Part shown: positions 1-26,111 of the stretch, piece by piece | Numbering within the stretch: the first letter of the stretch is position 1 | Layout of the letters: each line of letters starts with the position of its first letter | DNA from: Aureimonas altamirensis | GTDB taxonomy: Bacteria; Pseudomonadota; Alphaproteobacteria; Rhizobiales; Rhizobiaceae | Assembly: GCF_001463885.1 (NCBI RefSeq) | Contig: NZ_BBWQ01000005.1 | Coordinates: 186,001-250,000, forward strand | Direction: 5' to 3' | DNA length: 64,000 bases | Notes under the pieces: generated by a model | The model's database searches: none | Told to the model about the DNA's origin: nothing | The model's input: the letters and a program-made list of their open reading frames with translations, nothing else | Made by a program: the position numbers and the translations under genes

Positions 1-344
1 GGGCCAGCGGCGAAGAGGTGCGCGCGCAGCTTCTGGCGGCGCGGGCGATGATCCTGACAAGCTTTGCCGAAGGACTACCGGTAGTCATCATGGAAGCCTA
101 TGCGCTCGGCCGGCCGGTGCTGGCCACCGAGATCGCCGCTATCCCCGAACTGGTGAAGGAAGGGGAGACGGGCTGGCTCTTCGGCGCCGGCTCCGTCGAA
201 GATGCCGCCGATGCGATGCGCCGCTGCCTCGAGACGCCGGATGTCGCCTGCGAGGATATGGGCCGGCGCGGACAGGCGCTGGTGCGCCAGCGCCATGATC
301 TGTCGCGCGAGGCAGGTTACCTCGCCGAACTGTTCAGGGCCTGA
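1..344 (+). CDS. GT4-family glycosyltransferase, C-terminal part (cut by window start)
   Basis: The reading frame is open from base 3 and ends at the TGA at 342-344, so only about the last 113 residues are present and the true start lies outside the window. The visible part carries the GT-B C-terminal nucleotide-sugar signature of GT4 enzymes: the stretch SFAEGLPVVIMEAYALGRPV contains the E-x7-E motif, followed by A(T/S)xxxxIPELV and a glycine-rich GETGWLF segment. GT4 enzymes move a sugar from an activated nucleotide donor to a lipid or glycan acceptor at the inner face of the membrane. The substrate cannot be read. It converges on the GMC oxidoreductase gene with about 40 bases between the two stops, so it need not belong to the secondary-metabolite cluster. 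Confidence 0.85.
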   Translation, partial: ASGEEVRAQLLAARAMILTSFAEGLPVVIMEAYALGRPVLATEIAAIPELVKEGETGWLFGAGSVEDAADAMRRCLETPDVACEDMGRRGQALVRQRHDLSREAGYLAELFRA

Positions 345-374: not shown

Positions 375-396
375 CGTCGCGGCTTAAGCCGCGACG
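375..396. terminator. 22-bp perfect palindrome at a convergent gene junction
   Basis: The core GTCGCGGCTTAAGCCGCGAC (376-395) is its own reverse complement, and one further pair extends it on each side. The TTAA centre holds the stop codon of the minus-strand oxidoreductase gene. It sits between two convergent genes, so a bidirectional transcript-ending hairpin is the likeliest role. There is no T-tract, so Rho-independent termination is not proven. A protein-binding palindrome is the alternative. Confidence 0.5.
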
Positions 397-2078
397 CTGC
401 CGCGCATGTTCACCTTGCGAAATGGCGTAACCTTGCCTTCGCTTTCCGCCGAAAGGCGGTTGGCAAGGCGCACGGCAAGGGCCATGGCCGTCAGGGTGGG
501 GTTGGCCTGACCCGAGGTCGGCAGAACCGCCGTGCTGGTGACGAACAGATTGGGCAGGTCGAAGCTGCGCAGATTGCCGTCGACGACACTGTCGCGGGCG
601 TTGGCGCCCATGCGGACCATGCCGATCTGGTGCGTGCCGTGCCGTGCCTGGGCCATGACGGCGGCCACACGCTCTTCGCGCGGCATGCGATAGTCGATCC
701 GGCCGAAGCCAGTCTTCTCCAGCCAGGTCTCGAACAAATCGTGCACCTTGACCACCGATTGGGCGTCCGAGCGCGGAAAACGCAGATCGATCTCCAGCCT
801 TGGCAATCCCAGCGCATCGGTCTTGTCGGTCAGCCAGACGCGGCTGAGCGGATCGGGACTATGCTCGGAATGATAGGACAGGCCGTAGCGCCGGTTGCGA
901 TTATGCACGAACAGGCCGGGCAGGCGCTCGCGACGGCCATAGCGGCGCATTAGGAAGCCGGCGGCCTGGGCCATCGCTTCCGGCGCACCCTTCAAGACGT
1001 TCTGCAGGTGCGCCCTGATCTCGCGCGGGGCATCGGGAATGTGCCGCCGGCGGATCGCCTCGGCGACGATGAGACGGCCGACAGGTCCCAGCGCCATCAC
1101 CAGATAGACGAGCGACAGGATGGGGCTGCCATGGCGCGGATCGGCCACAGGCGGCACCACCGGCCACAGAGCGGTGTTGAGGACGCCCTCTCGAAGCTGG
1201 GTCTCCATGCTGGGCACGAAGCGCCGGCGGACATAGGAACCGCTGTCGTGGACGAAGAAGTCGAAAGCCTTGTCGATATCGCCTGTCGCCATGGTGATGT
1301 CGGCGATCTCGCCGATCAGATGTCCCATGTAGTATCGGCCGAGAGGGCCATCGGGCCCGCCGAACAGGTTTGCATGCCGGCGCTGCGTCGCCAACAGAAG
1401 CCGGGCGCTTTCCAGCCCCCCGGCCGCGATGACGAGCCTGTCTACGCCGAGGCGCCGCCGTTCCCCGCCGTCGGCACGGACGATTTCCACGTCGCGCACC
1501 CGCCCATCGGGCGAAATGCCGATATCGGTGACGACGCAGCGCAGCCGGACATCGATCAGCGGGCTGCGGGCCAGAAGCTTGCGATGGGTGACATGAAGCT
1601 TCTGCTCGTTGGCCCAGCGCTCCAGCGTATCGAAGCTGAAGCTGTCGTCCGCGCAGGTGACGCCCGGGATCGGCGCGCTGTAGACGACGTCGCCGGCATC
1701 CGCGATCTGGCATGCCCGCGCGTAATGCGGGAATATATCGTCATACGAGATGGGCCAGTTCGCATTCACCAGGCCGGGCCTCGGAACGAAGTCGACCGGA
1801 TCGTAGATGACGCAGCGTGCGCCCCACAGGTTGGATGTACCGCCAAGCGCACGCGCCGTCGCCACGCTCATGTCGTCGTGCCGGTCGGGCGTCGCGAAGT
1901 CCGCTTCGGCCAGCGCCTGGATGGAGTCGGACTGGCGGTGACCGCCGGATTCCAGCAGCAGGACAGGTATCTTCAGTCGCTCAAGCTCGACTGCCAATGT
2001 AATGCCGACAGGTCCGGCCCCGACGATGCAAACGCCGGAAAAGGATGTCCCAAGGCCATCGAAATCATCGTGGATCAT
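384..2078 (-). CDS. GMC-family FAD-dependent oxidoreductase
   Basis: 564 residues. An N-terminal FAD dinucleotide-binding motif is visible in CIVGAGPVG (about residues 17-25) with the ribose-binding acid in LLLESGG (about 43). The C-terminal GMC_oxred_C region carries HGTHQIGMVRMG and, later, a P-T-S-G-Q-A-N-P-T-L-T segment holding the conserved Asn and the FAD-contacting end. Members oxidise alcohols or related CH-OH groups, passing electrons to FAD. The start gives an ATG directly before the flavin motif with normal spacing. No signal peptide is seen, so it should be cytoplasmic. It lies immediately downstream of the PKS on the same strand, about 220 bases away, and may act as a tailoring oxidase on that product. 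Its substrate is not deducible, and a role outside the cluster remains possible. Confidence 0.85.
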   Translation of the reverse strand: MIHDDFDGLGTSFSGVCIVGAGPVGITLAVELERLKIPVLLLESGGHRQSDSIQALAEADFATPDRHDDMSVATARALGGTSNLWGARCVIYDPVDFVPRPGLVNANWPISYDDIFPHYARACQIADAGDVVYSAPIPGVTCADDSFSFDTLERWANEQKLHVTHRKLLARSPLIDVRLRCVVTDIGISPDGRVRDVEIVRADGGERRRLGVDRLVIAAGGLESARLLLATQRRHANLFGGPDGPLGRYYMGHLIGEIADITMATGDIDKAFDFFVHDSGSYVRRRFVPSMETQLREGVLNTALWPVVPPVADPRHGSPILSLVYLVMALGPVGRLIVAEAIRRRHIPDAPREIRAHLQNVLKGAPEAMAQAAGFLMRRYGRRERLPGLFVHNRNRRYGLSYHSEHSPDPLSRVWLTDKTDALGLPRLEIDLRFPRSDAQSVVKVHDLFETWLEKTGFGRIDYRMPREERVAAVMAQARHGTHQIGMVRMGANARDSVVDGNLRSFDLPNLFVTSTAVLPTSGQANPTLTAMALAVRLANRLSAESEGKVTPFRKVNMRGSVAA

Positions 2079-2290
2079 ATGGGTTTTTCCGAGTGGTTGA
2101 GATGCCGACGCCGGAAAAAGGAGGCGGGGCTTTCTCGTAAAAAGGTTAAAATAATTCTACAAAACCGCATCTAAACAGCAGGTTGGGAAAGCTTGGTTGC
2201 AACACGGTTCAAGACGTTCGCATTGAACTGGAAAATAATCCCCGCTTCAATCTCTACTTTCACGGCATCGTTACAGAGTCTTTAGGGGTA

Positions 2291-2312
2291 GGCGGCGGAT
2301 CACTCCGCCGCC
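2291..2312 (-). terminator. Hairpin at the 3' end of the PKS gene
   Basis: GGCGGCGGA (2291-2299) and TCCGCCGCC (2304-2312) form a perfect 9-bp stem with a 4-base loop. The loop contains most of the PKS stop codon. On the minus strand no T-run follows, so it could end or stabilise the long PKS transcript rather than act as a classic intrinsic terminator. Confidence 0.45.
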
Positions 2313-5300
2313 ATCAGCATCCCGTCATCGTTGCCGCGCGCGGCCTCCGCTTCGGCCAGGCACTGGCGCATGCGTTGCGCCAGAACGCGCACGCAGGGCT
2401 CCAGCACCATTCCGTCATGGTCGCCCGGAACGATGGAGACGACCAGCTCGTCGACATGCGGCGTCCAACCATTGTCGTCCAGGACGATGGTGCGGCCTTC
2501 CTGCAGACGGCGGCCATCGCGCAGGCGGTAGACGACCTCCGGAACAGGACGGAACAGGTGCACCGTCCCGCCATAGGGCCGCACATTGTAGAGCTCGAGC
2601 GCACGGCGGAAGGCCGTCTCGATATTATGGTTGTGGAACTGCTCGCCGCCGGTCTCGCCGGCCGCGGCGGATTCGCGCTCGCGCTTCTCCTTTTCCCACA
2701 GCATGCGGTTGCGCCACCATTGCGAGACGAAGGACAGCTTGTTGCGCCGGATATCCTGCAACTTCATGTCGAAGCGGTCGATCTGGCTGATCGCCGGCTG
2801 CGTCGGCAAAGGCGTATCCAGCATGATGAGGCGCTCGACGGTTTCTCCCGCTTCCGTCAACTGACGCGCGATCTCGAATGCGGTGATGCCGCCACCCGAG
2901 AAGCCGCCCAGAAGGTAGGGTCCGTGCGGCTGCACCATGCGGATTTCCGCCAGTATGTCGGCGGCCGCGCCCTCGAACGTCTCGTGCGGAGCCTCCATCC
3001 CGTACAGTCCACGCGCCTGCAGCCCGTAGACGGGGCGGTCGGCGCCCAGATGCAATGCCAGATGGCGCAGGTTCAGGATGTTGCCGAACATGCCGGCGCA
3101 CAGGAAGAACGGCGTTGCCTTGGGATCGCGGCCGGGATGCATGGCCACCAGATGCGTCATGCGCGTGGCGGCCGCCGTTTCCGCGCCCGGGGTTGCAGTG
3201 GCTTCCTCGCCCTCGTCGGAGATGCCCGTCCTTTCGGCGATCAACCGCGCGCAGGCCGCGATGGTGGGCGCCTCGAACAGGACCGAGATGGGGAAGTCGA
3301 CGCCGTACTCCTGGCGGATCATGCGGAACAGGCGCACGGCGATCAGCGAGTGGCCGCCCATGTCGAAGAAGCTGTCGTCGACGCCGATTTCCTCGATGCC
3401 CAGCAATTCGCGCCAGAAGGCCGCAAGGCGGCGCTCCACCGAATTACGCGGCGCCACGTAATCGCGCTCCGAGGCCGGACGCTCGAAAAGCTGTGCCGGA
3501 CGGGCCGGTTCCGCAGCAGGCTGCGCCGCCCGGGCGATCAGCGCGTGCAGGTCGATCGACGAGATGATCGGCTGCGTTTCCTGGGTGGCCAGCGCTCTCT
3601 GCAGAAGCTGGAACCCTTCTGCCGGCCGTATGCCCTGCGCCACCTGCGCGGCAAGTGCCGCCACGGCCGGTGACAGGGACGGGGTCGTTGCCGGCGCCAG
3701 CGGGGCGGCGGCTTCGCCGCCGGCAAAGCCGGTATCGCTGGCAAGACGCTTGATGATGAAGCGCTCGATCTCCACCACGGCGACGCCGTCGGGGCCGGCC
3801 AACGTCACGTCGAAGGCGGCATAGCCCTCACCGAGGTCGTCGGCGTCGGCCAGGCGCAGATGGCTGTAGATCTGGCGCGGCAGGGCCGCGTGAACCTTGA
3901 TGCTGCCGTAGGATGCAGGCGCCCAAAGCACATCCGTCTCCCCGTAGCCGGGGATCAGCTCCATCGCGCAGCCCGTGGCGATGTCCATCAGGGCCGGATG
4001 CAGCAGCATGGCGTCGGCGCCGGCTTCCGGCGCCAGCGTCAGCTCGGCCAGCGCTTCGCCCTGGCCGAGGCCGAGCTGCTTGAGCACCCGCCAGCGCGGG
4101 CCGAAGCGGACATGGCCTTCCTGCGCGGCAACCAGCGAGCCGCCCTCCGGCGCTGCGCGCCGGTCCGGGCACCGCTCGAAGGCGGAGCGAACGTCGAGAG
4201 TGCCGGCCTTTCCGGCGCCGAAGCGCAGCGATGCCTCTGCGTGGCGCTGCCAGACCGTTCCGGCGCTCGCCGCCAGAATGGCGACGCGCCAGCCGTCCTT
4301 GCGCTTTTCCAGGCGGGTGCGCACGATCTTTTCTTCGCCGTCGGCCACGTCCAGCGGCCGCAGAAAGACGAGGTCCGATATGGTCAACTGCGACGGCAGC
4401 CCATATTCGCGCGCGGCTTCCACAATGAGTTCGATATAGCCGGTGCCCGGCAGAAGCGCCGTGCCCGATGTCAGCCGATGCTCGGACAAGAGCCAGTCGC
4501 GCTCGGGCGAAACGGTCCGCTCCAGCCAGTCGACGCCGTCGGCGTCGGCTTCCCACCGCTCGAAGAACGGGCCGTGGCGCACCGGCTGGCCGGTGGTGTC
4601 GGCGCGGGCGCGGCCCATGGCGCGTGCCGCAAGGCCGGTCTCGTCCCAGATGCCCCAGTGTACGGCCACCGTCTTGCGGTTGCTGCGGCCACGCTCGGCT
4701 TCGGCAAAGGCGTTCAGGTAGGCGTTGGCCGCAACGTAGTCCACCTGCCCGGCCGGGGCCGTATCGGTGCTCGTGGACGAGAAGAGGACAAGGAAATCCA
4801 GCGTTTCCCGGTCGAGCACGTCGGCCAGGACATTGGTGCCCAGTACCTTCGGGCTGAACACCTCTTCGATGTCCATATGCGTCTTCAGCGGGATCAGGTC
4901 ATCCTTGACGAGGCCGGCGGCATGGAACACTCCGTCGATGCGCCCGAAGGCGCGGCGGGTTTCTTCCACGGCGGCGGTCATCGCTTCCTGGTTGCCGACA
5001 TCGGCGGACAGGCACAGGACGTCGCCGCCTGCGGCCTCCATGGCCTCGACGGCTTCGATCAGCGTGCGCAGGCGGTCGCCCCGGGCCAGGGCATGCTTCA
5101 GGCTCGGCCATTCTTCGCGGGCAGGCAAAGCGCGGCGGCCGACCAGCGCGATGCGTGCCGCATGCCGCTCCACGAGCTGGCGGGCCAGCGCCAGCGGCAG
5201 GTCGCCGTGGCCGCCGGTGAACAGATAGACGCCGCCGGTGCGGTAGGGCACTTCGCCCGTCTCGGGCAGCTTCAGCGCCGCATGGCTGCGGCTCCAGCGC

Positions 5301-8300
5301 AGGCCCTTGCGCCACGCCACGATTTCGGATGCCGGCGCGCCGAGAAGCTCGTTCCACAGATCGTCGGGCGTCGTGCCGGATGCGGGTCCGGCCTCGGCCT
5401 TGCCCCGGACGAACAGGCCCCGGCGCTTTTCGGCACCGGAAGCCGCGCGCGGCAGGTCGAAATCGATGACGCGGACGGTGACGCCCGGCATCTCTTTCGG
5501 CAGGACCTGACAGGGGCCGAGAACGGTGGCCTTGTCCGGATAGGGCAGGGCCTCGTCGCCCACGCGCTGCATGCCGTTGGTGGCGACCGTCAGGTGCAGC
5601 GGGGCGGCGATGCCGGCGTCGGCCATCGCCTGCGACAGGTGCAGCAGGCTGTAGAAGCCGCATTCCTGGTTGCGGTGGAAGAAGCTGGAACCGGGGCGAT
5701 GCTTTTCGCCCTGCGTCAGCAGCCACAGATGGAGCATCTCGGTGGGCAGTTCGCCATCGGCGGCGAGCCCGCTGAACAGCGCGTCATAGCCCGACCGGTC
5801 GCCTTCCGGGCACACCACGTAGGAGTCCGGTCCGCGTTTGCCGAAATTGTCGCCCTGCCGCACCGTGGCCACACGGTGTCCGAGGGCGCGCAGGCGCCCG
5901 GTGATCTCGGCGCCGACGCCGGCTTCGTCCTCGAAGACGAGCCAGAAGCGCTTCGCCATCTCGCCATCGCTTTCGATGTCGGCGACGGAACGCTTCCAGA
6001 CCGGGCGGTAACCCCATTGCGACAGATCTTCCTGGCGCACCAGCGCCGGGGCGTCGGAGCCCTGCTGTTCGCGGGCGGCCGCCTCGATGAAGTAGCGGCG
6101 ATGCTGGAAGGCGTAGGTCGGCAGCGAGACGCGGCGGGCGCCCGGCGCGGTCCACAGACCGTCGAAATCGCCGGCCAGGCCGGTTGCCCAGAGGCGGCCG
6201 AGGGCGGCCATCAGGCTCAGCCGGTCGTCACCCTTCTCGTCGGCATGGGGCAGGGCGTTGACGATCTGGTTGGCGTCGATCGACCCCTGCGCCTTGGCAA
6301 GCGACGACAGGGCGCGGCCAGGGCCGACCTCGACATAGATGCGGGCCTTGTCCTGCGCCAGAAGCCCCATGCCCAGCGCAAACTGCACGGTGGAGCGCAG
6401 ATGGCGGCACCAGTAGAGCGGGTCGGTGGCTTCCGTGTCCGTCAGCCACGTTCCCGACAGGTTGGAAACGATGGGGATGCGCGGAGCGCCAAGACGGATC
6501 GTGCGAAGGAAAGCTTCGAAGCGCGGCAGGATCGCGTCGAGCATCCGCGAATGGGCGGCGATGTCGATGGGAACGCGCGTCGCGTCGATCCCGTCGGCGG
6601 CCAGCGACTGGCGGAACGCCTCCAGATCTTCGTTGAGGCCCGATACGACGCAGAACTGCGGCGCGTTGACCGAAGCAAGATCGAGCGCCTCGGGCAGGCG
6701 TGCCTTCAAGGCCGCCGGATCCATCGGCACGCTGAGCATGCCGCCGGGCGCGATGGTGGCGAAGAGTTCGCCGCGCAGCCGAACCAGGCGCACGGCATCG
6801 GCAAAGGAGAAGACGCCGGCAAGGCAGGCCGCCGCATTCTCGCCCATCGAATGGCCAATCAGCGCCTGCGGCTGGATGCCATGCGCCATCAGGTGCCGGC
6901 CGACGGCGATTTCGATGATGAGGATGGCGGGAAGCTGGACCGATGGCCTCAGAAGCGTCTCTGCCGCCTTCGTATCGCCGGCAGGCGCCTCGAGCCAGGC
7001 AGCGCGGATTTCGCGCGCGGCTTCCGGGGCAAGGGCGGCAAGCCCTTCCTCGACCGTGGCGCGGAAAGCCTTGTCCTCGGCGTAAAGGCGCGCCGCCATG
7101 CCGGTATGCTGTGCGCCGCCACCGGGGAACAGGAAGACCGCGCCGGCGGGGGCGTCGAGTGCCGTATGCGTGAAGGCGCGGCGCGTTTCGGCGTCGCCCA
7201 GCACCTCGATGGCGTCGCCGCGTCCACGCACGGCCACCACGCGCCGATGCTCGAACGTCTTGCGGCCGGTGGCCAGGGTAAAGGCCGTGTCTGCGAGGCT
7301 CAGCGAGGCATCCTGCTTCAGCCGCGCCGACAGGCGCGCGACGGCGCCGTCGAGCGCCTTGCGGTTGCGGGCGGAGAACACCAGAAGGCGCGGGGCGTTG
7401 TCGTTGTCGGCGGTGTCCGTACGTCCGCCGCCATGGCCGGCCGGGGCCTGCTCCAGAATGACGTGGGCATTGGTGCCGCCGACGCCGAGAGAGTTGACGG
7501 CGGCGCGCCGGGGGGCGCCCAGATCGGTCCACGCGTTGAGCCGGTCGTTGACGACGAAGGGGCTGTCGGCGAAGGGAATGGACGGGTTGGGCTTTTCGTA
7601 GTTGAGGCTGGGCGGCACCATTGCGTGCTTGACCACCAGGGCGGCCTTGATGAGGCCGACCACACCGGCCGCCGTATCGAGATGGCCGATATTGGTTTTC
7701 ACCGAGCCGATGCGGCAGAAGCCGGTTTTGTCGGTGCCCTGACGGAAGGCCTGCGTCAGCGCCTCCACCTCGATCGGATCGCCGAGATAGGTGCCGGTGC
7801 CGTGGCATTCGACATAGCCGATCGTTTCGACATCCAGCCCGGAAAGAACCTGGGCCTCCACGATGGCCTCGGCCTGGCCGGAGACGCTGGGTGCGAGGTA
7901 GCCGGCCTTGGTGCCGCCGTCATTGTTGATGGCGCTGGCCTTGATGACCGCATGGATGACGTCGCCATCGGCGATGGCATCGGACAGACGCCGCAACGCG
8001 ACGATGGCGACGCCGCTGCCGAACACCGTGCCGGCGGCACGATGGTCGAAGGCGCGGCAATGGCCGTCGGGCGACAGGATCTCGCCGTCCTGGAACGTAT
8101 AGCCGCGGCGGTGCGGCAGCTCGATCGTCACGCCGCCGGCCAGCGCCATGTCGCACTCGCCGCTCATCAGGCTCTGGCAGGCATAGTGCACGCCGACGAG
8201 CGAGGTGGAGCAGGCGGTCTGCACATTCACGCTGGGGCCGCGCAGATCGAAGGTGAAGGAGGCGCGCGTGGACAGGAAGTCCTTGTCGTTGCCGGTGTGC

Positions 8301-8755
8301 CGCAGCAGGAACATGCCGGTGTCTTCCACCAGCTGCCGATTGCTGCAGACATTGAAGTAGAAATAGCTGCCCATGCCGCAGCCGGCGAAGACGCCGACGG
8401 GGCCGGCGGTGGCGTCGGGCGTGCGCCCGGCATCTTCCATCGCCTCCCAGGCGCATTCCAGGAACTGGCGATGCTGCGGGTCCATGATGGCCGCTTCCTT
8501 GGGGCTGAGCCCGAAGAAGTCCGCATCGAACTGCTCCATATCGGCAAGGTCGGCAGCGCGGGGCACGTAATTGGGGTGGTGGATGCGGTCGGGTGATTCC
8601 CCCGCCTCGATCAGCTCTTCACGGCTGAGGGTGCGGATCGATTCCACTCCGTTGCAGAGATTGTCCCAGAACTCCTGCACGTTCCTGGCGCCAGGTACGC
8701 GCAGCGCCATGCCGACAATGGCAATGTCGTTGGGTGAAATCGTCTCGTTGGCCAT
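2300..8755 (-). CDS. Modular type I polyketide synthase, KS-AT-KR-DH-ACP-TE
   Basis: 2151 residues from the ATG at 8755, which has GGAG just upstream; an ATG at 8788 has no ribosome site. Domains in order (approximate residues): ketosynthase 9-435 with Cys in TACSTSL (182), His in ECHGTGT (318) and His in NIGHL (358); acyltransferase 540-830 with GHSMGE nucleophile Ser636; a linker or structural ketoreductase half 915-1165; ketoreductase 1175-1370 with TGGHGDLPLALA, Ser-Ser in LFSSTS and Tyr1340; dehydratase 1420-1670 with His1426 in EHRLTSGTALLP and Asp1591 in HPALMD; acyl carrier protein 1775-1840 with Ser1803 in DMGGHSL; thioesterase 1880-2140 with Ser1953 in GGFSGGG and His2113 in GDHDGM. 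All catalytic residues I looked for are present. The ketoreductase precedes the dehydratase, the reverse of the usual module. AT type is unclear: GHSMG leans to malonyl, but the specificity loop reads IAAHS. It probably accepts the acyl chain from the divergent NRPS. Confidence 0.95.
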   Translation of the reverse strand: MANETISPNDIAIVGMALRVPGARNVQEFWDNLCNGVESIRTLSREELIEAGESPDRIHHPNYVPRAADLADMEQFDADFFGLSPKEAAIMDPQHRQFLECAWEAMEDAGRTPDATAGPVGVFAGCGMGSYFYFNVCSNRQLVEDTGMFLLRHTGNDKDFLSTRASFTFDLRGPSVNVQTACSTSLVGVHYACQSLMSGECDMALAGGVTIELPHRRGYTFQDGEILSPDGHCRAFDHRAAGTVFGSGVAIVALRRLSDAIADGDVIHAVIKASAINNDGGTKAGYLAPSVSGQAEAIVEAQVLSGLDVETIGYVECHGTGTYLGDPIEVEALTQAFRQGTDKTGFCRIGSVKTNIGHLDTAAGVVGLIKAALVVKHAMVPPSLNYEKPNPSIPFADSPFVVNDRLNAWTDLGAPRRAAVNSLGVGGTNAHVILEQAPAGHGGGRTDTADNDNAPRLLVFSARNRKALDGAVARLSARLKQDASLSLADTAFTLATGRKTFEHRRVVAVRGRGDAIEVLGDAETRRAFTHTALDAPAGAVFLFPGGGAQHTGMAARLYAEDKAFRATVEEGLAALAPEAAREIRAAWLEAPAGDTKAAETLLRPSVQLPAILIIEIAVGRHLMAHGIQPQALIGHSMGENAAACLAGVFSFADAVRLVRLRGELFATIAPGGMLSVPMDPAALKARLPEALDLASVNAPQFCVVSGLNEDLEAFRQSLAADGIDATRVPIDIAAHSRMLDAILPRFEAFLRTIRLGAPRIPIVSNLSGTWLTDTEATDPLYWCRHLRSTVQFALGMGLLAQDKARIYVEVGPGRALSSLAKAQGSIDANQIVNALPHADEKGDDRLSLMAALGRLWATGLAGDFDGLWTAPGARRVSLPTYAFQHRRYFIEAAAREQQGSDAPALVRQEDLSQWGYRPVWKRSVADIESDGEMAKRFWLVFEDEAGVGAEITGRLRALGHRVATVRQGDNFGKRGPDSYVVCPEGDRSGYDALFSGLAADGELPTEMLHLWLLTQGEKHRPGSSFFHRNQECGFYSLLHLSQAMADAGIAAPLHLTVATNGMQRVGDEALPYPDKATVLGPCQVLPKEMPGVTVRVIDFDLPRAASGAEKRRGLFVRGKAEAGPASGTTPDDLWNELLGAPASEIVAWRKGLRWSRSHAALKLPETGEVPYRTGGVYLFTGGHGDLPLALARQLVERHAARIALVGRRALPAREEWPSLKHALARGDRLRTLIEAVEAMEAAGGDVLCLSADVGNQEAMTAAVEETRRAFGRIDGVFHAAGLVKDDLIPLKTHMDIEEVFSPKVLGTNVLADVLDRETLDFLVLFSSTSTDTAPAGQVDYVAANAYLNAFAEAERGRSNRKTVAVHWGIWDETGLAARAMGRARADTTGQPVRHGPFFERWEADADGVDWLERTVSPERDWLLSEHRLTSGTALLPGTGYIELIVEAAREYGLPSQLTISDLVFLRPLDVADGEEKIVRTRLEKRKDGWRVAILAASAGTVWQRHAEASLRFGAGKAGTLDVRSAFERCPDRRAAPEGGSLVAAQEGHVRFGPRWRVLKQLGLGQGEALAELTLAPEAGADAMLLHPALMDIATGCAMELIPGYGETDVLWAPASYGSIKVHAALPRQIYSHLRLADADDLGEGYAAFDVTLAGPDGVAVVEIERFIIKRLASDTGFAGGEAAAPLAPATTPSLSPAVAALAAQVAQGIRPAEGFQLLQRALATQETQPIISSIDLHALIARAAQPAAEPARPAQLFERPASERDYVAPRNSVERRLAAFWRELLGIEEIGVDDSFFDMGGHSLIAVRLFRMIRQEYGVDFPISVLFEAPTIAACARLIAERTGISDEGEEATATPGAETAAATRMTHLVAMHPGRDPKATPFFLCAGMFGNILNLRHLALHLGADRPVYGLQARGLYGMEAPHETFEGAAADILAEIRMVQPHGPYLLGGFSGGGITAFEIARQLTEAGETVERLIMLDTPLPTQPAISQIDRFDMKLQDIRRNKLSFVSQWWRNRMLWEKEKRERESAAAGETGGEQFHNHNIETAFRRALELYNVRPYGGTVHLFRPVPEVVYRLRDGRRLQEGRTIVLDDNGWTPHVDELVVSIVPGDHDGMVLEPCVRVLAQRMRQCLAEAEAARGNDDGMLMAAE

Positions 8756-9041
8756 CTCGCTCCGCCCGCAAATGTTTAGAAAATCCATTGCGCGGCGAAA
8801 ACGTCACGGTGCCGCTGGCGACAGGAGTAAGCCTTCGGGCGGTGCGCGTCATGATAGCATTTGGAAAGATCGGGCTTATGCCGAAGGGATAAAATAGCGG
8901 ACCTTGCTACCGCTTCCGAAGTAGGGCCTACCGCCGACACCATCCTTCCGACGTCGCCGGAAGTGCAAATTGATCTTTCTGTCGGGGCTTGCCCATAGTC
9001 CGCAAGATATTTTCTCGAAAGTATATTCGGAGCCGATTGCG
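8756..9041. promoter_or_regulatory. Divergent control region between PKS and NRPS genes
   Basis: This 286-base gap separates two megasynthase genes transcribed outward, so it should hold both promoters. It contains an inverted repeat TTCCG-7-CGGAA at 8946-8962, a near-palindrome GTAGGGCCTAC at 8921-8931 and a locally AT-rich stretch near 8888-8896. No convincing spaced -35/-10 pair was found and no regulator gene sits in the cluster. A shared operator is possible but unproven. Confidence 0.4.
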
Positions 9042-12000
9042 ATGGCCGTATTTCAGTGTGTCCTTGTCGGGGACGAATCCCTTCTTGTCGAATGTGCCCG
9101 CCGCCTGACGGGGCGTGGCCATGCCATCGCAGCCATCGTGACCGCCTCGGGCCCCGTGCGCCAATGGGCCGAGGGCAGCGGCATCAAGGTTCTGGAGTGG
9201 GGAAGCGACCTCAGCGAGACGCTGGCTTCGCATGATTTCGACTATCTGTTCAGCATCGCCAATCTTCGCATGATCCCGCAGAGCGTGTGGCAGCGTGCCC
9301 GCCGTGGCGCCATCAACTTCCACGATGGTCCGCTGCCCCGATACGCCGGTCTGAACACGCCGAGCTGGGCGCTGCTGGCCGGTGAGGAACGCCACGGCAT
9401 CACCTGGCATTCGATCACCGACGGCATCGACGAAGGCGGCATCTATGCGCGGGCCGATTTCGAGATCGCGCCCGACGATTCGGCGCTGACGCTGAACACG
9501 AAATGCTTCGAAGCCGGCCTGGCGGCCTTTGCCGACATGCTGCCGGGCCTCGAGGACGGCTCGCTGCGGCCCGTGCCGCAGGACTTTACCGACCGCCAGC
9601 TCTTCATGCGCCAGAAGCGGCCGCAACGCCTGGGCGCCATCGCCTTCGAGGACGGGGCCGAGGCCGCCTCCTGCATGGTCCGGGCGCTCAGCTTCGGCGA
9701 CGGTTACCGCAACCCGCTTGCGACACCCAAGATCGTGTCCGACACGGCCATCTTCACCGTAACCGCGCTCGACATCGTCGATGGCGCATCGCGGGGCGTG
9801 CCGGGAACCGTCATGGGCTTCGAGGGCACTGCGGCCGTGATCGCGACGGCCGACCGGCCCATCCGTGTCGAAGCGCGCTGCCCGAAGGGACTGCCGATCG
9901 CCTCGGTGCTTTCGGTGGGACAGATCCTGCCGCGCATGGGCGAAGGACAGGCCGAGCGCCTGCTGGCGACCGGCGAGGAAGCCGCAGCCCACGAAGGCTT
10001 CTTCCGCAACCGCTTCGCAACGCTGATCGACCTCGACATTCCCGGCGACAGCCGCGCATCCGGCCCGGCGGACATGCGGACGCTTGCTCTGGCACCGAGC
10101 GTTACCCCGGCCGCGGTTGTCGCGTTTCTTTACCGCCTGACGGGAGAAACGAATTTCGACATCGCCCATGTCTCGGAAACCGAGCTTGCGGCCGCGCGCA
10201 GTTTCCCGGGCTTCTTCCGCGAAGCTTTGCCGCTGCGCGTACAACTTTCGGGGGATGAAACTCCGGCGGCGTTTTCCGAGCGTTTCGAGCAGCGCGCTGT
10301 CGCGCTGGTTAAGCGCGGCATCTGTGCCGCCGACCTTCCGGCCCGCACCCCCGGTGCAACCGATGCAGAGCTTTCAGTCGCTCTGTCCTATGGCATGGAG
10401 CCGGTTGCCGGCGCCGCGCTGACCTTCGCCTTCGCCAACGGTCGATCTGCCCTGATCCATGATCGCAACCGCATTGGCGACGAGGCGGCCGATACGCTTG
10501 CAGGCCGCGTTGCGGTGCTGGCCGGCTCGTTCAACGCGGTCCAGCGCATGCAGGACCTGCCGTTGATGACGTCGGAAGAGCGCAACCGCATCCTGTACGG
10601 GCTGAACGAATCGGAACGCCAGTACGACCGCACCGCCACCATGCACGGGATGATCGAGGCGCAGGTGGACCGCACACCCCATGCGCCCGCCGTCGCCGCC
10701 GGGGCAAGCGAGCTGACCTACCGCGCGCTGGACGAGCGGGCCAACCGTATCGCCCATGCGCTGCGCGCGGCCGGGGCCGGCCCAGACGTGCTGATCGGGC
10801 TGCATGTGGAGCGGGGCGTGGACCTGGTTGCCGGGGCGCTGGCCATCCACAAGGCCGGTTCCGCCTATGTGCCGCTGGACCCGCATTTCCCGGCCGAGCG
10901 CCTTGCGATGATGGTCGAGGACAGCGCGGCCCCCGTCGTGCTGACGGAGCGTGCGCTGCAGGACTCGCCGGCCTTGGCGGGTGTCCGTACGCTGGTCATC
11001 GAGGATTTGCTGGCGGGCGACTGGCCGGCCGAGCGGCCGGCTTCCGGCGTCGCCCCGCACAACCTTGCCTATGTCATCTTCACATCCGGCTCCACCGGCC
11101 GTCCCAAAGGCGTGATGGTGGAGCATCGCAACGTCGTCAATTTCCATGTCGGCATGGACGACAGGATCCAGGGCATGGACGCCGCCGGCCAGAAGGTCTG
11201 GCTGGCCGTCACCAGCCTGTCCTTCGACATTTCCGTGCTGGAGCTGTTCTGGACACTGGCGCGCGGCTTCAAGGTGGTCGTCTATCGCGGCGAAGGCGAG
11301 GGCGCATCCGCCCCGGCCCTGGCAGGCACGTCGAAGGTGCTGGATTTCGGCCTGTTCTACTGGGGCAACGACGATGGCGTCGGGCCGGCCAAGTATCGGC
11401 TGCTGCTCGAGGGGGCCCGGTTTGCCGACGAGCACGGTTTCCAGTCGATCTGGACGCCGGAGCGCCATTTCCATGCCTTCGGCGGACCGTACCCGAACCC
11501 GGCCGTCACCGGTGCGGCCGTGGCCTCGATCACCCGCAACCTGGCCATCCGCGCCGGCAGTTGCGTTCTGCCGCTGCACCATCCGCTGCGTGTGGCGGAA
11601 GAATGGGCCGTCCTCGACAATCTCAGCGACGGGCGCGTCGGCCTGGCCTTCGCGTCCGGCTGGATGCCCGAGGATTTCGCGCTGCGCCCCGAAAACGCGC
11701 CGCCGCACAACAAGAGCGCCATGCTGCGCGATGTGGATACGGTGCGCCGGCTGTGGCGCGGCGAAGCGGTGGAGTTCGACTTCGGGGCCGGCAAGGCCTC
11801 CTATGTCACGCAGCCGCGCCCGGTGCAGAAGGAACTGCCGGTCTGGATCACCACCGCCGGCAACCCCGATACCTACCGCGAAGCGGCGCGCGCCGGGGCA
11901 AACGTGCTCACCCATCTTCTCGGCCAGTCCATCGAGGAGCTTGCCGGCAAGATCCGCATCTATCGCGATACGCTGCGCGAATGCGGCCGCAACCCGGACG

Positions 12001-13631
12001 ACTACAAGGTCACGCTGATGCTGCATACGCTGATCGGCGACAACCGGGAAAGCGTGCGTGACATGGCCCGTGGGCCGATGAAGGCCTACCTGAAAAGCGC
12101 GGCTGCCCTGATCAAGCAGTACGCCTGGGCCTTCCCGGCGTTCAAGCGGCCGGCGGGCGCCGCACAGGCGATGGATATCGACCTGCGCTCGCTGACCGAG
12201 GAAGAGACGGACGCGATCCTGGAATTCGCCTTCCAGCGCTATTTCGAGGATTCCGGCCTGTTCGGCACTATCGAGGACGGCGCCAGGCGGCTGGACGAGA
12301 TATCCGCCATCGGCGTCGACGACGTCGCCTGCCTCATCGATTTCGGCGTGGCAAGCGACGCCGTGCTGGAAGGCCTCAGGCCTCTGGCCGCGCTGGTTGC
12401 CCGCAACCGGGCCGGGGGCACCGGGACCGCCGTGCCGGCCGGCGCGGAGGGCGAGGGTTTCGCCAGCCTCATCCGCCGCCACGGCGTAACGCATATGCAG
12501 TGCACGCCGTCGATGGCGCGCATGTTCCTCGATTCCGCCGACAACCGGAATGCCCTTGCCTCGGTGTGCCACCTCTTCATCGGTGGCGAGGCGTTGCACG
12601 GCTCGCTCGTCAGGGAGCTCAGCTCCATCTCGGGCGCCACCGTGGAAAACATGTACGGGCCGACGGAAACCACCATCTGGTCGTCCACCCTTACGGCCCG
12701 GGCACAGGACGGTGTCGTACCGCTGGGCCGACCTATCGCCAATACGCAGCTTTACGTGCTGGACGGCGCGGGCGAGCCCGTGCCGACCGGCACCCCGGGC
12801 GAGCTCTATATCGGCGGAGACGGGGTCACGCGCGGCTATCTCGGCCGTGCCGACCTGACAGCGGAGCGCTTCGTGCCGAACCCGTTTGCCGGTGGGCGCA
12901 TGTACCGGACGGGCGATCTCGCCTGCCTGACGGCCGATGGCGTTCTCAACTTCCTCGGACGGGCCGACCATCAGGTCAAGGTGCGCGGCTATCGCATCGA
13001 GCTTGGCGAAATCGAGACGCGGCTGAATGCGCTTCCGGGCGTTGCCGAAGCGGTGGTGATCGCGCGGGAGGACCGCAAGGACGACATAAGGCTGGTTGCC
13101 TATCTGCGCTTCGACGGTGCGGCCGTGCCGGATGCGACGTTGCGGAGCGAGCTTGCGCGCGATCTGCCGGACTACATGCTGCCGGCCCACTATGTGGCCA
13201 TGACGGCATTCCCCCTGACGCCGAACGCCAAGGTGGACCGCAAGCTGCTGCCAAAGCCGGAAGCGGCAGCGTCGGCAGAGCCGGCCTCGACCTACGAGGC
13301 ACCGGACAACGCCGTCCAGCGCGCCGTGGTGGAAGTTTTCCAGCGTATATTGGGTGTCGAGCGCGTGGGGCTGAACGACAGTTTCTTCGCCCTTGGCGGC
13401 CACTCGCTGCTGGCGGTGCAGGCGCATCGCGAGTTGAAGGCCGGTGTTGCCCCGGCGCTGACCATCACCGATCTGTTCCGCTTCCCCACGGCCGGGGGCC
13501 TTGCCGCCCATATCAGCGGCGACAGCAAGGCGGACGAGCGCTTGAACCGGGTGGCCGATCGTGCTGCCATGCGCCGCAACGCCATGAACGAACGGCGCGC
13601 CGGCTTCGGGCGCGTGCGGGAGACGGGATGA
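9042..13631 (+). CDS. NRPS: formyltransferase / truncated C / A domain interrupted by luciferase-like monooxygenase / PCP
   Basis: 1529 residues from the ATG at 9042, chosen because GGAG lies at 9029-9032; a TTG 72 bases upstream has no support. Residues 1-290 form a methionyl-tRNA-formyltransferase-like domain with Asn92 and His94 in INFHDGPLP and Asp130 in DGIDEGG. About 345-510 matches only the C-terminal half of a condensation domain; no HHxxxDG exists. The adenylation domain starts near 530: A3 [12 protein letters not shown] (680-691), A4 FDISVLE (728-734). A roughly 360-residue FMN-type luciferase-like monooxygenase of the MupA/Atu3671 kind (764-1123, starting [10 protein letters not shown]) interrupts it before A5 MYGPTE (1204), A7 YRTGDL (1288) and A10 NAKVDRK. 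The carrier domain has Ser1455 in LGGHSL. An Arg-rich tail of about 50 residues follows. My hand-read specificity code is DILQFGMIWK, close to the glycine code as I recall it. Known N-terminal formyltransferase NRPSs formylate the first amino acid, so this is probably the initiation module for the PKS. Confidence 0.93.
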
Positions 13632-14287
13632 CATTTCTGCCGGGCCTGTTCGGCCCTGCCATCGCCACCGCGGAAGCCCTTCCACCCTATTCGGAGGAAG
13701 GGCTTCTGCCGTTGGAGGAGGCGTTCGTCGCCCGCGCCGTGGGCCGGCGCCGGGCCGAGTTCGCCACGGGGCGGGTTTTGGTGCGGCGGGCGCTGGCCAC
13801 ACTGGGCGAGGCGCCGGTGGCAATTGCGGCCGGCGCGGACAGATCCCCACGCTGGCCCGACGGCATCGTCGGCAGCATCAGCCATTCGTCGGCGCTGTGC
13901 GGGGTGGCGCTCGGCCGCAAGGCGGACGGGGTCCGTCTTGTCGGACTGGACATCGAGCTGGCCGAGCCCCTGCCGCAGGACCTTTGGGAAACCGTTCTGA
14001 CACCGGCGGAGCATGAGACACTGTCCGCCATGCCTGCGGCCGAAGCCGGGCTTGCCGCCCGCGTGATCTTCAGCGCCAAGGAGTGCGTCTACAAGGCGCA
14101 GTATCCGGTAAGCGGGGTGTTGTTCGGCTTCGAGATGTTCGAGGTGGCGCTGGATATGCCGGGGGAATCGTTTCGGGCGGCCTGGCAGGGCGATGTCGGC
14201 CCGTTCAATGCGGGGCTGACATGGCATGGCCGCCTGCGCGTGGCGGGCGGCCATGTCGTCACCGGCTTTGCGGATATGACCGGCTGA
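13628..14287 (+). CDS. 4'-phosphopantetheinyl transferase (EntD/Sfp superfamily)
   Basis: 219 residues. The ATG overlaps the NRPS stop in the sequence ATGA, indicating translational coupling. Family signatures are clear: [12 protein letters not shown] near 46-56, [13 protein letters not shown] near 83-95, the magnesium-binding pair Asp108 and Glu110 in VGLDIELAE, and [13 protein letters not shown] with Lys151, Glu152 and Lys156. These match EntD-type enzymes, which attach phosphopantetheine from CoA to the conserved serine of carrier domains. Coupling to the NRPS implies that it activates the PCP (Ser1455) and probably the ACP of the divergent PKS (Ser1803). It converges on the RraA-like gene with a single base between the stop codons, so the cluster ends sharply here. 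Confidence 0.93.
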
Positions 14288-15008: not shown

Positions 15009-15019
15009 GCTCGTGTCCC

Positions 15020-17649: not shown

Positions 17650-17654
17650 GGCGC

Positions 17655-18470: not shown

Positions 18471-18504
18471 GGCCGGTCTCCTTGAGGATGATGGATGGTG
18501 AAGA

Positions 18505-18540: not shown

Positions 18541-18548
18541 GGGTCGGC

Positions 18549-19638: not shown

Positions 19639-19687
19639 CAACCTCGAATTTGTGTTACCGGTCGGCGTCACTTGGAGGAAGGCATCC

Positions 19688-20450: not shown

Positions 20451-21872
20451 TTAGTAGGCCGATTTGGACGAGATCATTTCCACGACCGTCCGGAAGATGA
20501 TGCGGATATCCAGCATGAACGACCAATTGTGGATGTACCACAAATCATGCGTCAGCCGCTCTTCCATGTGCGTCAGCGTCGGCGTTTCGCCCCGGCAGCC
20601 ATTGATCTGCGCCCAGCCCGTCAGGCCCGGCTTGGCGTGGCGGCGGAACGTGTATTTCTTCAGGAGCTGGTCGTATTCCTTGTCGTGCGCCACGGCATGC
20701 GGCCGGGGCCCGACAATCGACATCTGCCCGCACAGGACGTTCCAGAACTGCGGCAGCTCGTCGATGCTCTTGGCCCGGATGAAGGCGCCGACACGCGTGA
20801 TGCGGTCGTCGTTGCGCCGCGCCTGGGTGACCGTCTCGCCATCTTCCATGACGCGCATGGAGCGGAACTTGGCGATGCGGAACGCCTCGTTGTTGTAGCC
20901 GCGCCGGGACTGACGGAAGAAGACCGGGCCGCGACTGTCGATCTTGATCGCAATCGCCACCACCACGAACAGCGGCGCCAGGAAAGCCAGCGCGGCCGAG
21001 GCGAAGACGATGTCGAAGGCGCGCTTCATGGCCCGCTCGGCAAGCGTCAGCGGCCGGCGCTGGATCTCGAAGGCGATATTGTCGCCGATATGGCGCACCG
21101 GCTGCGCGATCAGGCCCGCGGCAAAGTCGTTGACGACAAGCTTGATCGGCAGGGGCAGGGCACGCAGCTCGGTCAGGAGCTGATCCATCATCGGCAGGTT
21201 GCCGGCGGGCGTGGCCACCATGACCTCGTCGACCGAGAAGCCGATGCCCGCGCTGAACGCACCCGAAAGCGCCGTGAAATCGTCGTTCGGGCAGCGCAGC
21301 ACATGGTGGATCGACAGGCCGTAGCGGGCCACGTCGGCGGCCATCTTGTCGTAGTCGAAGGATTCGCCGCAGATCAGGAGCACGCGCTTCATCTGGAACA
21401 GGCCGTGCGCCATGGCCGTATGCAGATGGCGCCGCCAGACGATGCGGCTGACGGTCAGCACCGTCATCGCCAGCAGCATGAAGGCCAGCATGGACGCGCG
21501 CGAGAAGATCTCGCCGATCTTCAGGAAGAAGGCGACGCTGGCCAGGAAGGCCATGATGCCCACCCCGGCCAGGAGGATGGCCCGAAACTGCGTGCCGAAC
21601 GACAGAAGCGCGGTCGGCTTGTAGAGGCCGCAGGCGCTCATGGTCAGCACGAAGGCGGCGGCCAGCGTGATGCCGACGCCGATCCACGGGGAGGGGTCGA
21701 TGAGAACGCCGAAAGCCAGCCAGTGATAGGCGATCCCGGCGGTGATGCTGCTGCCGACGATCAACACGACATCCAGCACGGCGGCGACCGTGGCTATGGT
21801 GTCGTAGTTCAGCGTCCGGCCTTGCCGCCGCCTTGCGGCGAGCTTGAGGTGGGTGGTTTCGATCAGCGCCAT
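20451..21872 (-). CDS. Undecaprenyl-phosphate sugar phosphotransferase (WcaJ/ExoY-type initiating enzyme)
   Basis: 473 residues from the ATG at 21872. Four N-terminal membrane segments are visible between about 25 and 140, then a Rossmann-like middle region (LLICGESFDYDKMAADVARYG), then a fifth hydrophobic segment (FDIVFASAALAFLAPLFVVV). The C-terminal bacterial sugar transferase domain has GPVFFRQSRRGYNN, FRIAKFRSMR, SIDELPQFWNVL, GPRP and KPGLTGWAQING. These are the hallmarks of polyisoprenyl-phosphate hexose-1-phosphate transferases, which load the first sugar-phosphate onto undecaprenyl phosphate at the inner membrane. It should start the exopolysaccharide repeat unit. Length fits WcaJ-like proteins rather than the short ExoY form. 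Confidence 0.93.
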   Translation of the reverse strand: MALIETTHLKLAARRRQGRTLNYDTIATVAAVLDVVLIVGSSITAGIAYHWLAFGVLIDPSPWIGVGITLAAAFVLTMSACGLYKPTALLSFGTQFRAILLAGVGIMAFLASVAFFLKIGEIFSRASMLAFMLLAMTVLTVSRIVWRRHLHTAMAHGLFQMKRVLLICGESFDYDKMAADVARYGLSIHHVLRCPNDDFTALSGAFSAGIGFSVDEVMVATPAGNLPMMDQLLTELRALPLPIKLVVNDFAAGLIAQPVRHIGDNIAFEIQRRPLTLAERAMKRAFDIVFASAALAFLAPLFVVVAIAIKIDSRGPVFFRQSRRGYNNEAFRIAKFRSMRVMEDGETVTQARRNDDRITRVGAFIRAKSIDELPQFWNVLCGQMSIVGPRPHAVAHDKEYDQLLKKYTFRRHAKPGLTGWAQINGCRGETPTLTHMEERLTHDLWYIHNWSFMLDIRIIFRTVVEMISSKSAY

Positions 21873-21997
21873 GTCGGGCTCGCGGTGTGGGGCCGTCCGT
21901 CCGGCTGCGGTTCGCGCCTGGACGGGGCTGTCAACGGGTAATGGGTTCGATGGTCTGCGGTGGCGCGCCCTTTCGGGCGCGGCCTTGCGGTCCGGCC

Positions 21998-23215
21998 TCA
22001 GGGCCGGGCCTCGGTCGTGCTCTCGGCACGGTTGCGGTCTGTGCGAACCCAGCCCGCCGAATGGCGGCGCAGGATGAGCTTGTTGACGTAAAGCGGGATC
22101 TTGCCGAGCGCGTAGGTGGCGATGTGGCCGAAGGCCCGTGCCGGAAGGATAGACCGTCCGTACTTTGCCCACCCGATCAGCGAGGCCCCGACCACGAAGG
22201 CCAGGTTGAAGGCGGCCAGAAGGAAGGCGCCCACGGAGCCGGTGATCATCGCGAACAGCGCCGTAACGCCGAACATCATGATCAGGAGCAGCAGCAGAAG
22301 CGTCAGCGGCGGCACCATCATGTCGAGCGACAGGACGAGCGCCCCCGGCTGGCGCAGGATGCCCGGCTTGAAGAAGCCGGCGATCGCATTGCCCAGCATG
22401 GACAGATGGCCGTTTTCCCAGCGCGAGCGCTGCGAACGTATCCCCTGCTCGGTGCAGGGGAACTCGCTGGTCACATAGGCGTCTTCGCACAGGAACGGCG
22501 CATAGCCCTCCACTGCCAGATCGAGGCCCAGCTTCAGGTCTTCGGTCAGGTGCCCGTTCGCAAGGTCGACGGTTTCGATGGCCTTCCAAGGGAAAGCCAT
22601 GCCGGTGCCCATCAACTGGTTGGGCAGCCCCAGGCGACGCAGGCCCAGCGGCCGTGCGAGGCACTTGATGACGTAGGCGAAAGCCGCAACCTGGGTTTCG
22701 ATGGGCGCCCCCTTCGGGGCGGTCATCAGGTATACGGCCTGGGCCGGCTTGTCGGTCTCCGCGACCTGGCGGGCGAGCATGTCGATCGCGCCGTCGGACA
22801 GGCGGCAATCCGCATCCAGGATGATCAGGCACTCGGCGGGGTTCTTGGCGACATAGGCGACGCCGGCATCGAGCGCATAGCCCTTGCCGCGCTTCTGCGT
22901 ATCGTATCGCTCCACCACCTCGACACCGGCCGCCCGTGCAATGGCGGCCGTCCTGTCTTCGCAGTTGTCGGCTACCACGACGACGCGGTCACCCTCTGCA
23001 AGTTGGGGAAGAAGCGCGGCGATGGTGCCGCCGATGTTGTCTTCCTCGTTATGTGCCGGCACAACGATCGCGACGCTGGGGCGCGGCACGGCGATGGCCC
23101 GGTTGGGCTTGCGCTTGGCGAGGATACCGGAGGCGATTTCCGTCCCGTATACGACGGTGGGAACGGCAAGTGCGCCGTTCAACGCCAGAAAAAACATGTT
23201 CAGCAATTGCGCCAC
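21998..23215 (-). CDS. Membrane glycosyltransferase, GT2 family
   Basis: 405 residues. An N-terminal hydrophobic segment precedes the GT-A domain: VAIVVPAHNEEDNIGG, VVADNCEDRT, ILDADCRLS (the DxD metal motif), TEDLKLG (catalytic acid) and QRSRWENGHL (QxxRW). Three or more C-terminal membrane helices follow, starting VLSLDMMVPPLTLLLLLL. The DxD / ED / QxxRW set is that of membrane beta-glycosyltransferases, some of which are processive. It probably adds a sugar to the lipid-linked repeat unit. It lies upstream of the initiating transferase gene on the same strand, 125 bases away, and likely shares its transcript. Confidence 0.9.
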   Translation of the reverse strand: MAQLLNMFFLALNGALAVPTVVYGTEIASGILAKRKPNRAIAVPRPSVAIVVPAHNEEDNIGGTIAALLPQLAEGDRVVVVADNCEDRTAAIARAAGVEVVERYDTQKRGKGYALDAGVAYVAKNPAECLIILDADCRLSDGAIDMLARQVAETDKPAQAVYLMTAPKGAPIETQVAAFAYVIKCLARPLGLRRLGLPNQLMGTGMAFPWKAIETVDLANGHLTEDLKLGLDLAVEGYAPFLCEDAYVTSEFPCTEQGIRSQRSRWENGHLSMLGNAIAGFFKPGILRQPGALVLSLDMMVPPLTLLLLLLIMMFGVTALFAMITGSVGAFLLAAFNLAFVVGASLIGWAKYGRSILPARAFGHIATYALGKIPLYVNKLILRRHSAGWVRTDRNRAESTTEARP

Positions 23216-24505: not shown

Positions 24506-24825
24506 ATTCGTCTCCTGAAACCGATCCGGACAATCCGGATTGTGAGTCGACGCACGGCAAAGTTGCAACTACGCGGCGGGGAATTTGCTCACGGCGCAAG
24601 GATGCCCTGTCGCCATGCCCGCCAGAAGTCCGTCAGTGGAGGTGCATCGGGCCTTCGGATGCGCCGGACGGAGGGGCGTCTAATGCTAATTGCGTACGGG
24701 TAAACGGGCCGTACTTCAATTAGTTTCGCAGCAGTTAAGCAGTGCGGGAGGCCACGTGTCCACCGGCCTGCATCAAGCTCATTCAAGACCGATCATCGGG
24801 AATTCATTTCGCCCGGAGCCGCCCC
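24506..24825. promoter_or_regulatory. Divergent control region of the exopolysaccharide locus
   Basis: This 320-base gap lies between a minus-strand GT2 gene and the plus-strand export operon. Its main structure is the long interrupted inverted repeat at 24686-24723, listed separately. The section 24680-24735 is AT-richer than its surroundings, as expected for promoters. No gene or second repeat was found. Confidence 0.45.
24686..24723. promoter_or_regulatory. Long interrupted inverted repeat, candidate operator
   Basis: CTAATTG-c-GTACGG (24686-24699) faces CCGTAC-tt-CAATTAG (24709-24723) across a 9-base spacer, giving 13 matched pairs. It sits about 100 bases upstream of the export operon start. 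The size and symmetry suit a dimeric transcription factor controlling export and GT genes. An RNA hairpin in a leader is the alternative. The bound protein is unknown. Confidence 0.5.
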
Positions 24826-26055: not shown

Positions 26056-26111
26056 CGCCCTGCCGGCGAACCCCTCATCCTTACGGCGGCCTCCCACCGA
26101 TGGAGCGTGGC

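Follow-up and report, generated by a model that had tools for sequence, protein, structure and literature searches.

The window analysed here, 64,000 nucleotides of Aureimonas altamirensis DNA, corresponds to bases 186001-250000 of its contig (NZ_BBWQ01000005.1) in a genome of 4.19 Mb, and carries a compact two-enzyme assembly line. One enzyme is a nonribosomal peptide synthetase (NRPS) starter module encoded on the plus strand (9042..13631), recognised by Pfam and NCBIfam matches, alignment and fold models. The other is a polyketide synthase (PKS) encoded on the minus strand (2300..8788), recognised by Pfam and NCBIfam matches and alignment. The two genes diverge; 253 bases separate the first base of the PKS gene (8788) from the likely NRPS start codon (ATG 9042), and a promoter and terminator scan of 8700-9100 found neither. 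A gene for an Sfp-type phosphopantetheinyl transferase (PPTase; 13628..14287, plus strand; Pfam/NCBIfam) overlaps the NRPS stop codon in the sequence ATGA. An earlier sequence-only reading of this DNA had listed these three genes and a GMC oxidase, all of which were confirmed where it had placed them, and had regarded them as a compact hybrid cluster. The parts of that line stand, but its surroundings had been missed: the cluster sits in a Wzx/Wzy-type exopolysaccharide locus. This setting shifts the likely role of the line from a stand-alone natural product to serving the polysaccharide.

The NRPS consists, in order, of a formyltransferase, the C-terminal half of a condensation (C) domain, an adenylation (A) domain split by a flavin mononucleotide (FMN)-type, luciferase-like monooxygenase, and a peptidyl carrier protein (PCP), as judged from Pfam and NCBIfam matches and structure. 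The domains listed in the sequence-only reading are all present; what it overlooked is the half C domain at residues 328-548, and a start at TTG 8970 is probably wrong. The open reading frame does open at this TTG, from which residue numbers are counted here, but ATG 9042 is the more likely start because methionine stands at that position in 54 of 81 aligned NRPS rows. Relatives for comparison came from 552 stretches matched among genome contigs, 541 of them at tblastn E <= 1e-3, many of which may be ordinary NRPS genes; the best 80 were used. Catalytic residues are conserved in all rows that reach them (81 NRPS and 66 PKS rows). The PCP (residues 1452-1515) keeps its serine in 80 of the 81 rows, the remaining row having a gap. 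Over the 80 relatives, mean identity to the window NRPS is highest in the monooxygenase (71%), with 61% in the PCP, 56% and 64% in the two A-domain halves and 54% in the formyltransferase core.

The A domain matches Pfam in two pieces, residues 563-777 and 1151-1363. Between them lies the monooxygenase (11346..12395, plus strand; residues 793-1142), which matches TIGR04020 in NCBIfam at 468.6 bits, well over the cut-off of 244.45, and which, by alignment, is inserted after motif A4 (FDISVLELF) and before A5 (GPTE). Its best-scoring solved relative is PuwE (PDB 6ket, E 2.5e-106). The ten specificity-code positions, mapped by motif with GrsA numbering, read DILQFGMIWK in the window; the pattern DILQ[MFLY]GMIWK holds for 81 of 81 rows, one of which lacks the last position. 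The reference glycine code is DILQLGLIWK, and the code of this A domain is glycine-like. Six further relatives from a family-wide search share the glycine-like code, one of them (L112) being identical to L016.

The formyltransferase domain (9042..9932, plus strand) has an ArnA/Fmt fold, as seen from Pfam, alignment and an AlphaFold model. The Formyl_trans_N match (66.2 bits) covers residues 79-187, and the catalytic residues N116, H118 and D154 are invariant in all 81 rows. In the model of residues 1-560, with a predicted local distance difference test (pLDDT) score of 88.8, the formyltransferase fold extends over residues 25-321, and its nearest folds are the ArnA, Fmt and 10-formyltetrahydrofolate dehydrogenase hydrolase domains; against the ArnA formyltransferase 2bln_A, the superposition gives Z 25.9 and 2.6 Å over 283 residues. 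The half C domain (9951..10613, plus strand) is recognised from a fold model and a profile search. Residues 328-548 were folded alone, the structure matches of the longer model having been taken up by formyltransferases, and the resulting model (pLDDT 95.9) matches the C-terminal half of domains of the condensation superfamily in the 50 matches listed (Z 15.1-16.8 over 185-214 residues, at a root-mean-square deviation of 2.7-3.9 Å), which are C domains plus a small number of X, terminal and pyochelin-synthetase ones. The profile search agrees, aligning the same residues with EntF 237-450 (E 1.5e-6). In ordinary C domains, the catalytic HHxxxDG motif sits in the N-terminal half, and ahead of residue 328 there is no room for such a half, since the formyltransferase occupies that place. 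The simplest origin would be that the formyltransferase replaced the N-terminal half of a C domain, and we regard this fusion to a half C domain as an uncommon event in the evolution of such modules.

Among PDB entries, the window NRPS is matched best by LgrA, the linear gramicidin synthetase. LgrA has the order formyltransferase, A domain, carrier, and its N-terminal formyltransferase acts in cis on the aminoacyl-PCP. The N-terminal formyltransferase is the shared feature; the window protein differs in the A domain split by a monooxygenase, in its glycine-like code and in the PKS that comes next. Furthermore, in the LgrA-type order the formyltransferase is followed directly by the A domain, whereas here the half C domain at 328-548 stands between the two.

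The PKS comprises a ketosynthase (KS, residues 20-398), an acyltransferase (AT, 551-823), a ketoreductase (KR, 1186-1383), a dehydratase (DH, 1421-1684), an acyl carrier protein (ACP, 1787-1850) and a thioesterase (TE, 1895-2016); scanning the window PKS with Pfam and NCBIfam gave no enoylreductase (ER). In an alignment of the window with 65 of 75 relatives, from which shorter rows were dropped, the KS Cys/His/His, AT Ser, KR Tyr/Asn, DH His/Asp, ACP Ser and TE Ser/Asp residues are invariant in all 66 rows; 65 rows keep the TE His, and the remaining one has a gap there. The AT motif IAAHS leaves the extender unit undecided. Of 69 PPTase matches on the same strand as the NRPS, 64 start between -350 and 60 nt relative to its end. 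The GMC-family oxidoreductase (384..2078, minus strand; Pfam/NCBIfam), which had been counted as a core part, is instead accessory and poorly conserved alongside the cluster: 3 of 80 loci have a close relative, 1 has a weak relative and 13 have a different GMC protein, while one of the 31 control stretches also contains a weak one.

The polysaccharide genes of the window lie on both sides of this cluster. Upstream is the 3' end of a family 4 glycosyltransferase (GT4) gene (1..344, plus strand), which begins 852 bases ahead of the window. Downstream, an initiating sugar transferase of the WbaP type (Bac_transf; 20451..22832, minus strand) is joined by family 2 glycosyltransferase (GT2) genes at 21998..23215 and 23528..24568, both on the minus strand; the sugar-transferase frame overlaps the first of these, and one of the two probably starts later. 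A Wza-like polysaccharide export protein (24742..26055, plus), a Wzz/Wzc-like chain-length protein (26100..27653, plus; a weak Pfam match, under the cut-off) and a probable tyrosine autokinase-like ATPase (27665..28474, plus; read by eye, with no Pfam match) follow. The Wzx flippase (29539..30918, minus), a Wzy-like polymerase (Wzy_C; 30928..32550, minus) and a further GT2 glycosyltransferase (32730..33788, plus) complete the set. A type I PKS thus lies inside a polysaccharide synthesis and export locus, both by the genes of the window and by the neighbourhoods of its relatives.

Among the 80 relatives, 79 have at least one polysaccharide gene nearby and 68 at least three, as opposed to 0 of 31 controls, in a phmmer search whose seeds came from the window and from positive loci and which missed some true glycosyltransferases (as in L130, at 46% identity, where no seed matches but Pfam recognises genes of the GT4, epimerase and DegT families). 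The control stretches (28 of 20 kb and 3 short ones, 568 kb altogether) came from 7 genomes of the same family and were set at round coordinates, not at random. When the GT2 gene of the PKS-NRPS operon is excluded, 76 of the 80 relatives keep a polysaccharide gene, and 70 have one other than a glycosyltransferase. Fewer than two polysaccharide genes are present in nine loci, eight of them on stretches shorter than 17 kb, the exception being L082. A second test used curated Pfam models on 24 of the 80 genomes, hand-picked and mostly named isolates, with expectations that assume uniform placement and rounded genome sizes. In 19 of these 24 genomes a Wzx gene is found no more than 30 kb from the NRPS (0.94 expected), and in 20 a Bac_transf sugar transferase is (0.92 expected); one or the other is found in 23, the miss being G142 (L080). 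The arrangement of the two enzymes varies, with 45 same-direction loci, 28 divergent, 2 of other layout and 5 without a PKS in the stretch. In every same-direction locus (45/45), a GT2 gene stands between PKS and NRPS, recognised by profile search in 39 and by BLAST in 6 (55-64% identity).

The window NRPS shares 94-95% identity with its counterpart in A. altamirensis A31, with which it groups at full support, and the 80 relatives comprise Hyphomicrobiales, Rhodobacterales, seven Hydrogenophaga, a Novosphingobium bin and a myxococcal bin. At E <= 1e-100, the NRPS occurs in 7 of 121 family genomes sampled and 7 of 385 genomes of a class sample, its own genome being counted in both, which marks it as an accessory trait. 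In the NRPS tree (FastTree, midpoint root), the seven Hydrogenophaga, which are Betaproteobacteria, form one clade inside Rhodobacterales rows, and this nesting suggests that their NRPS was acquired by transfer. The myxococcal bin joins the tree half containing Hydrogenophaga with support 91, though bins may be contaminated. Three Hydrogenophaga loci (L046, L048, L049) have an extra protein of 1975-2003 aa downstream of the NRPS; the sole one scanned (L046:18146-24073) reads AMP-ligase-PCP-C-A-PCP-TE. Ectorhizobium quercum BDR2-2 (G129, L040) has two equal-score NRPS places (C11:853487-858127 and C16:316001-320641), each with an equal-score Wzx nearby, which is either a doubled locus or an assembly artefact.

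More distant kin carry variants of the line. L128 (8588-17854) encodes KS-AT-KR-DH-ACP-C-A-PCP-TE after the same formylglycine/monooxygenase starter, and the parts on either side of its added C-A-PCP module both align with the window PKS. L129 (8222-17458) encodes a protein of similar length after the same starter, and both loci are without matches to the polysaccharide seeds. Because L128 keeps KS-AT-KR-DH-ACP, with C-A-PCP added before the TE, the starter and first extension behave as a reusable block.

The chemistry of the starter can be approached from published monooxygenases. Domains of this kind within glycine A domains are reported or proposed to hydroxylate the alpha carbon of glycine (PMC10204066, PMC11342130), and the oxygenase domain of PuwE is assigned to a 2-hydroxyl (PMC4219810). 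The inserted monooxygenase agrees with such an alpha-hydroxylase, and the likely starter would be N-formyl-alpha-hydroxyglycyl, or glyoxylyl once formamide is lost, because glycine-A monooxygenases are reported to act on this carbon. Published substrates being N-acyl-glycyl, the formyl group may be regarded as the smallest N-acyl cap with which a line could begin. The carbinolamide of myxothiazol and melithiazol splits into an amide and a glyoxyl thioester, while that of solanimycin B is retained (PMC10204066, PMC11342130). The starter proposed in the sequence-only reading, a small amino acid that is formylated and oxidised, is supported by the glycine-like code in 81 of 81 rows, by the invariant formyltransferase N/H/D and by the reported glycine alpha-hydroxylation. 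The published myxothiazol/melithiazol chemistry would also let the N-formyl group go after hydroxylation, which would leave a glyoxylyl starter, and the final product may have no formamide.

In the mechanism proposed here, the A domain would load glycine onto the PCP, and the formyltransferase would formylate its amine to give the smallest N-acyl-glycyl thioester. The FMN monooxygenase would then hydroxylate the alpha carbon, and the N-formyl-alpha-hydroxyglycyl group could either stay or break into formamide and a glyoxylyl thioester. The PKS would add one extender activated by coenzyme A (CoA), probably malonyl-CoA, and would reduce and dehydrate the product. After one such round the acyl group would be unsaturated and four carbons long, though the PKS may also iterate. 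Finally, the TE may free the four-carbon acyl group or hand it to a sugar acceptor or carrier of the locus glycosyltransferases and Wzx/Wzy export. It had been predicted earlier that the chain is extended once or iteratively, reduced, dehydrated and released by the TE; a single round fits the intact domains. We infer the substrate, the step order, the number of extensions and the attachment to polysaccharide.

The favoured reading is that the two-enzyme NRPS-PKS line makes a short acyl unit for the exopolysaccharide, to which it would be transferred; this is held tentatively, at a little below an even chance. Its observed basis consists of the domains, the conserved catalytic residues, the glycine-like code and the genomic tie to polysaccharide genes, and it is the best guess because starter, PKS module and export system recur together across several orders. 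A more specific version is doubtful, namely that the line tailors a secreted polysaccharide by capping glycine with formyl for oxidation, losing formamide and using the PKS to make a reactive acyl group of four carbons (an enal or hydroxy-aldehyde, or its N-formyl hemiaminal) that would be placed on each repeat unit, which could cross-link or anchor the coat. Several points weigh against a polysaccharide role. We know of no product, structure or mutant of such a line, and no acyltransferase for attaching the unit was identified in the window. Five of the 80 loci are without a PKS in the stretch available, three of them (L029, L031, L033) despite nearly 10 kb of upstream sequence. L039, on a 7-kb stretch, has no polysaccharide gene, and L082, on a 26.7-kb stretch, has none beyond the operon GT2. 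Neither L131 (48% identity) nor the same-family members L115 and L116 (41-42% identity) match any polysaccharide seed, the latter two being grouped with L128 and L129 as kin that use the starter outside polysaccharide seeds. Other same-family members have one (L111), two (L114), five (L112) and six or more (L113) polysaccharide genes. The starter is consequently not tied to such loci throughout, and the tie is shown for the nearer kin.

The glycosyltransferases could instead glycosylate a free small molecule. A free, secreted product, perhaps glycosylated by the neighbouring enzymes, with the polysaccharide genes as neighbours or sugar suppliers, is rather unlikely, though the likeliest of the alternatives. 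The TE is able to release a free acid, the distant same-starter kin are without polysaccharide seeds, L128 has an added amino-acid module, and the further large NRPS-like protein downstream in Hydrogenophaga L046, L048 and L049 points the same way; against this, in several orders the cluster is repeatedly accompanied by genes for a flippase and an initiating sugar transferase, and the window itself holds a Wzx/Wzy export set. A longer chain is also conceivable, since a single-module PKS can iterate and here has intact KR and DH and no ER found; the acyl chain made by an iterative PKS would then be longer and (poly)unsaturated, and would serve the polysaccharide as its lipid anchor. The PKSs of the wcbR/rkpA capsule clusters have a lipid-anchor role. 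These clusters combine a type I PKS with capsular polysaccharide synthesis and export genes (PMC3908369), although the accessible text of that source describes wcb/rkp without mention of an NRPS. A dedicated formylglycine/monooxygenase starter would moreover be an odd beginning for a lipid, and the anchor is regarded as improbable.

Least probable is a siderophore or metal chelator, such as a hydroxamate-like N-hydroxy-N-formylglycine or an alpha-hydroxy acid. The family name of TIGR04020 refers to MupA/Atu3671, and Atu3671 presumably belongs to the Agrobacterium fabrubactin line. Fabrubactin alpha-hydroxycarboxylates are proposed to derive from FbnE (PMC12971057). This explanation is given a very low weight because none of the 9 TonB receptors of the genome lies on the contig of the cluster; in addition, the setting is a polysaccharide locus, and the nearby ABC transporter (17655-19553) has an NMT1-like binding protein and lies in a stretch without a match in the close relative L011.

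Known systems share individual features with the exopolysaccharide-associated line. The oxazolomycin, conglobatin and tolytoxin lines likewise have a formyltransferase and a glycine-type starter before a PKS, but they are not known to carry a monooxygenase within that A domain or to lie in a polysaccharide locus. The myxothiazol, melithiazol and solanimycin (SolF) lines have a flavin monooxygenase within a glycine A domain (PMC10204066, PMC11342130), comparable to the one in the glycine-like A domain of the window, but theirs acts on a chain in mid-elongation or at the end, whereas here the formyl group would be the sole acyl group and the line would begin with it. The monooxygenase domain of PuwE, the best-scoring solved kin of the inserted one, is assigned to a 2-hydroxyl on a carrier-bound chain and is placed between PKS and NRPS modules, not within an A domain (PMC4219810). 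The closest precedent found in the literature searched is the type I PKS of the wcbR/rkpA capsule clusters, likened here by cluster description and not by sequence, and with no NRPS partner mentioned in the accessible text of PMC3908369. The literature search found no description of an NRPS-PKS in an exopolysaccharide locus, nor of an NRPS partner or a formylglycine starter for such loci, a weak absence, as subscription papers, for the most part, and MIBiG/antiSMASH were outside its coverage. Should the exopolysaccharide role hold, the line would be a natural example of an NRPS-PKS that works for a glycan of the cell surface, with Hyphomicrobiales, Rhodobacterales and Hydrogenophaga as its hosts; a system that tailors surface glycans would then be showing up in the output of genome-mining programs as one more free natural product. 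The line also offers a compact two-protein system for studying formylated starters and monooxygenase-split A domains.

Several other genes accompany the cluster in the window or among its relatives. Two protein families (for example L027:19333-20259 and L014:16589-17671) have a GHS motif close to their N termini, and 32 of 80 loci encode a member of one or the other; the L027 and L046 members scanned have no Pfam match, and by eye they look SGNH-like, as candidate esterases or acyltransferases on polysaccharide. Between the PPTase and the sugar transferase (14289-20434) lie genes for an RraA-like aldolase, an IlvD/EDD dehydratase, the ABC transporter with its NMT1-like binding protein and a GntR/FCD regulator, probably an inserted island for sugar-acid use, since the close relative L011 has no match at that place. 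Plus-strand open reading frames at 14370-19346 were considered as TonB/ABC genes and rejected: none of the five scanned has a Pfam family, and the minus-strand frames are the genes. Further downstream, a 511-aa protein (33789-35324) that opens with a signal-like stretch and matches nothing in Pfam has relatives in 20 of 80 loci and resembles, by eye, a secreted glycoside hydrolase. An AIPR-domain protein (37285-38979) near a tRNA-Leu gene (40272-40356), in a stretch of lower G+C content (about 57-59%), is possibly a defence gene on an island.

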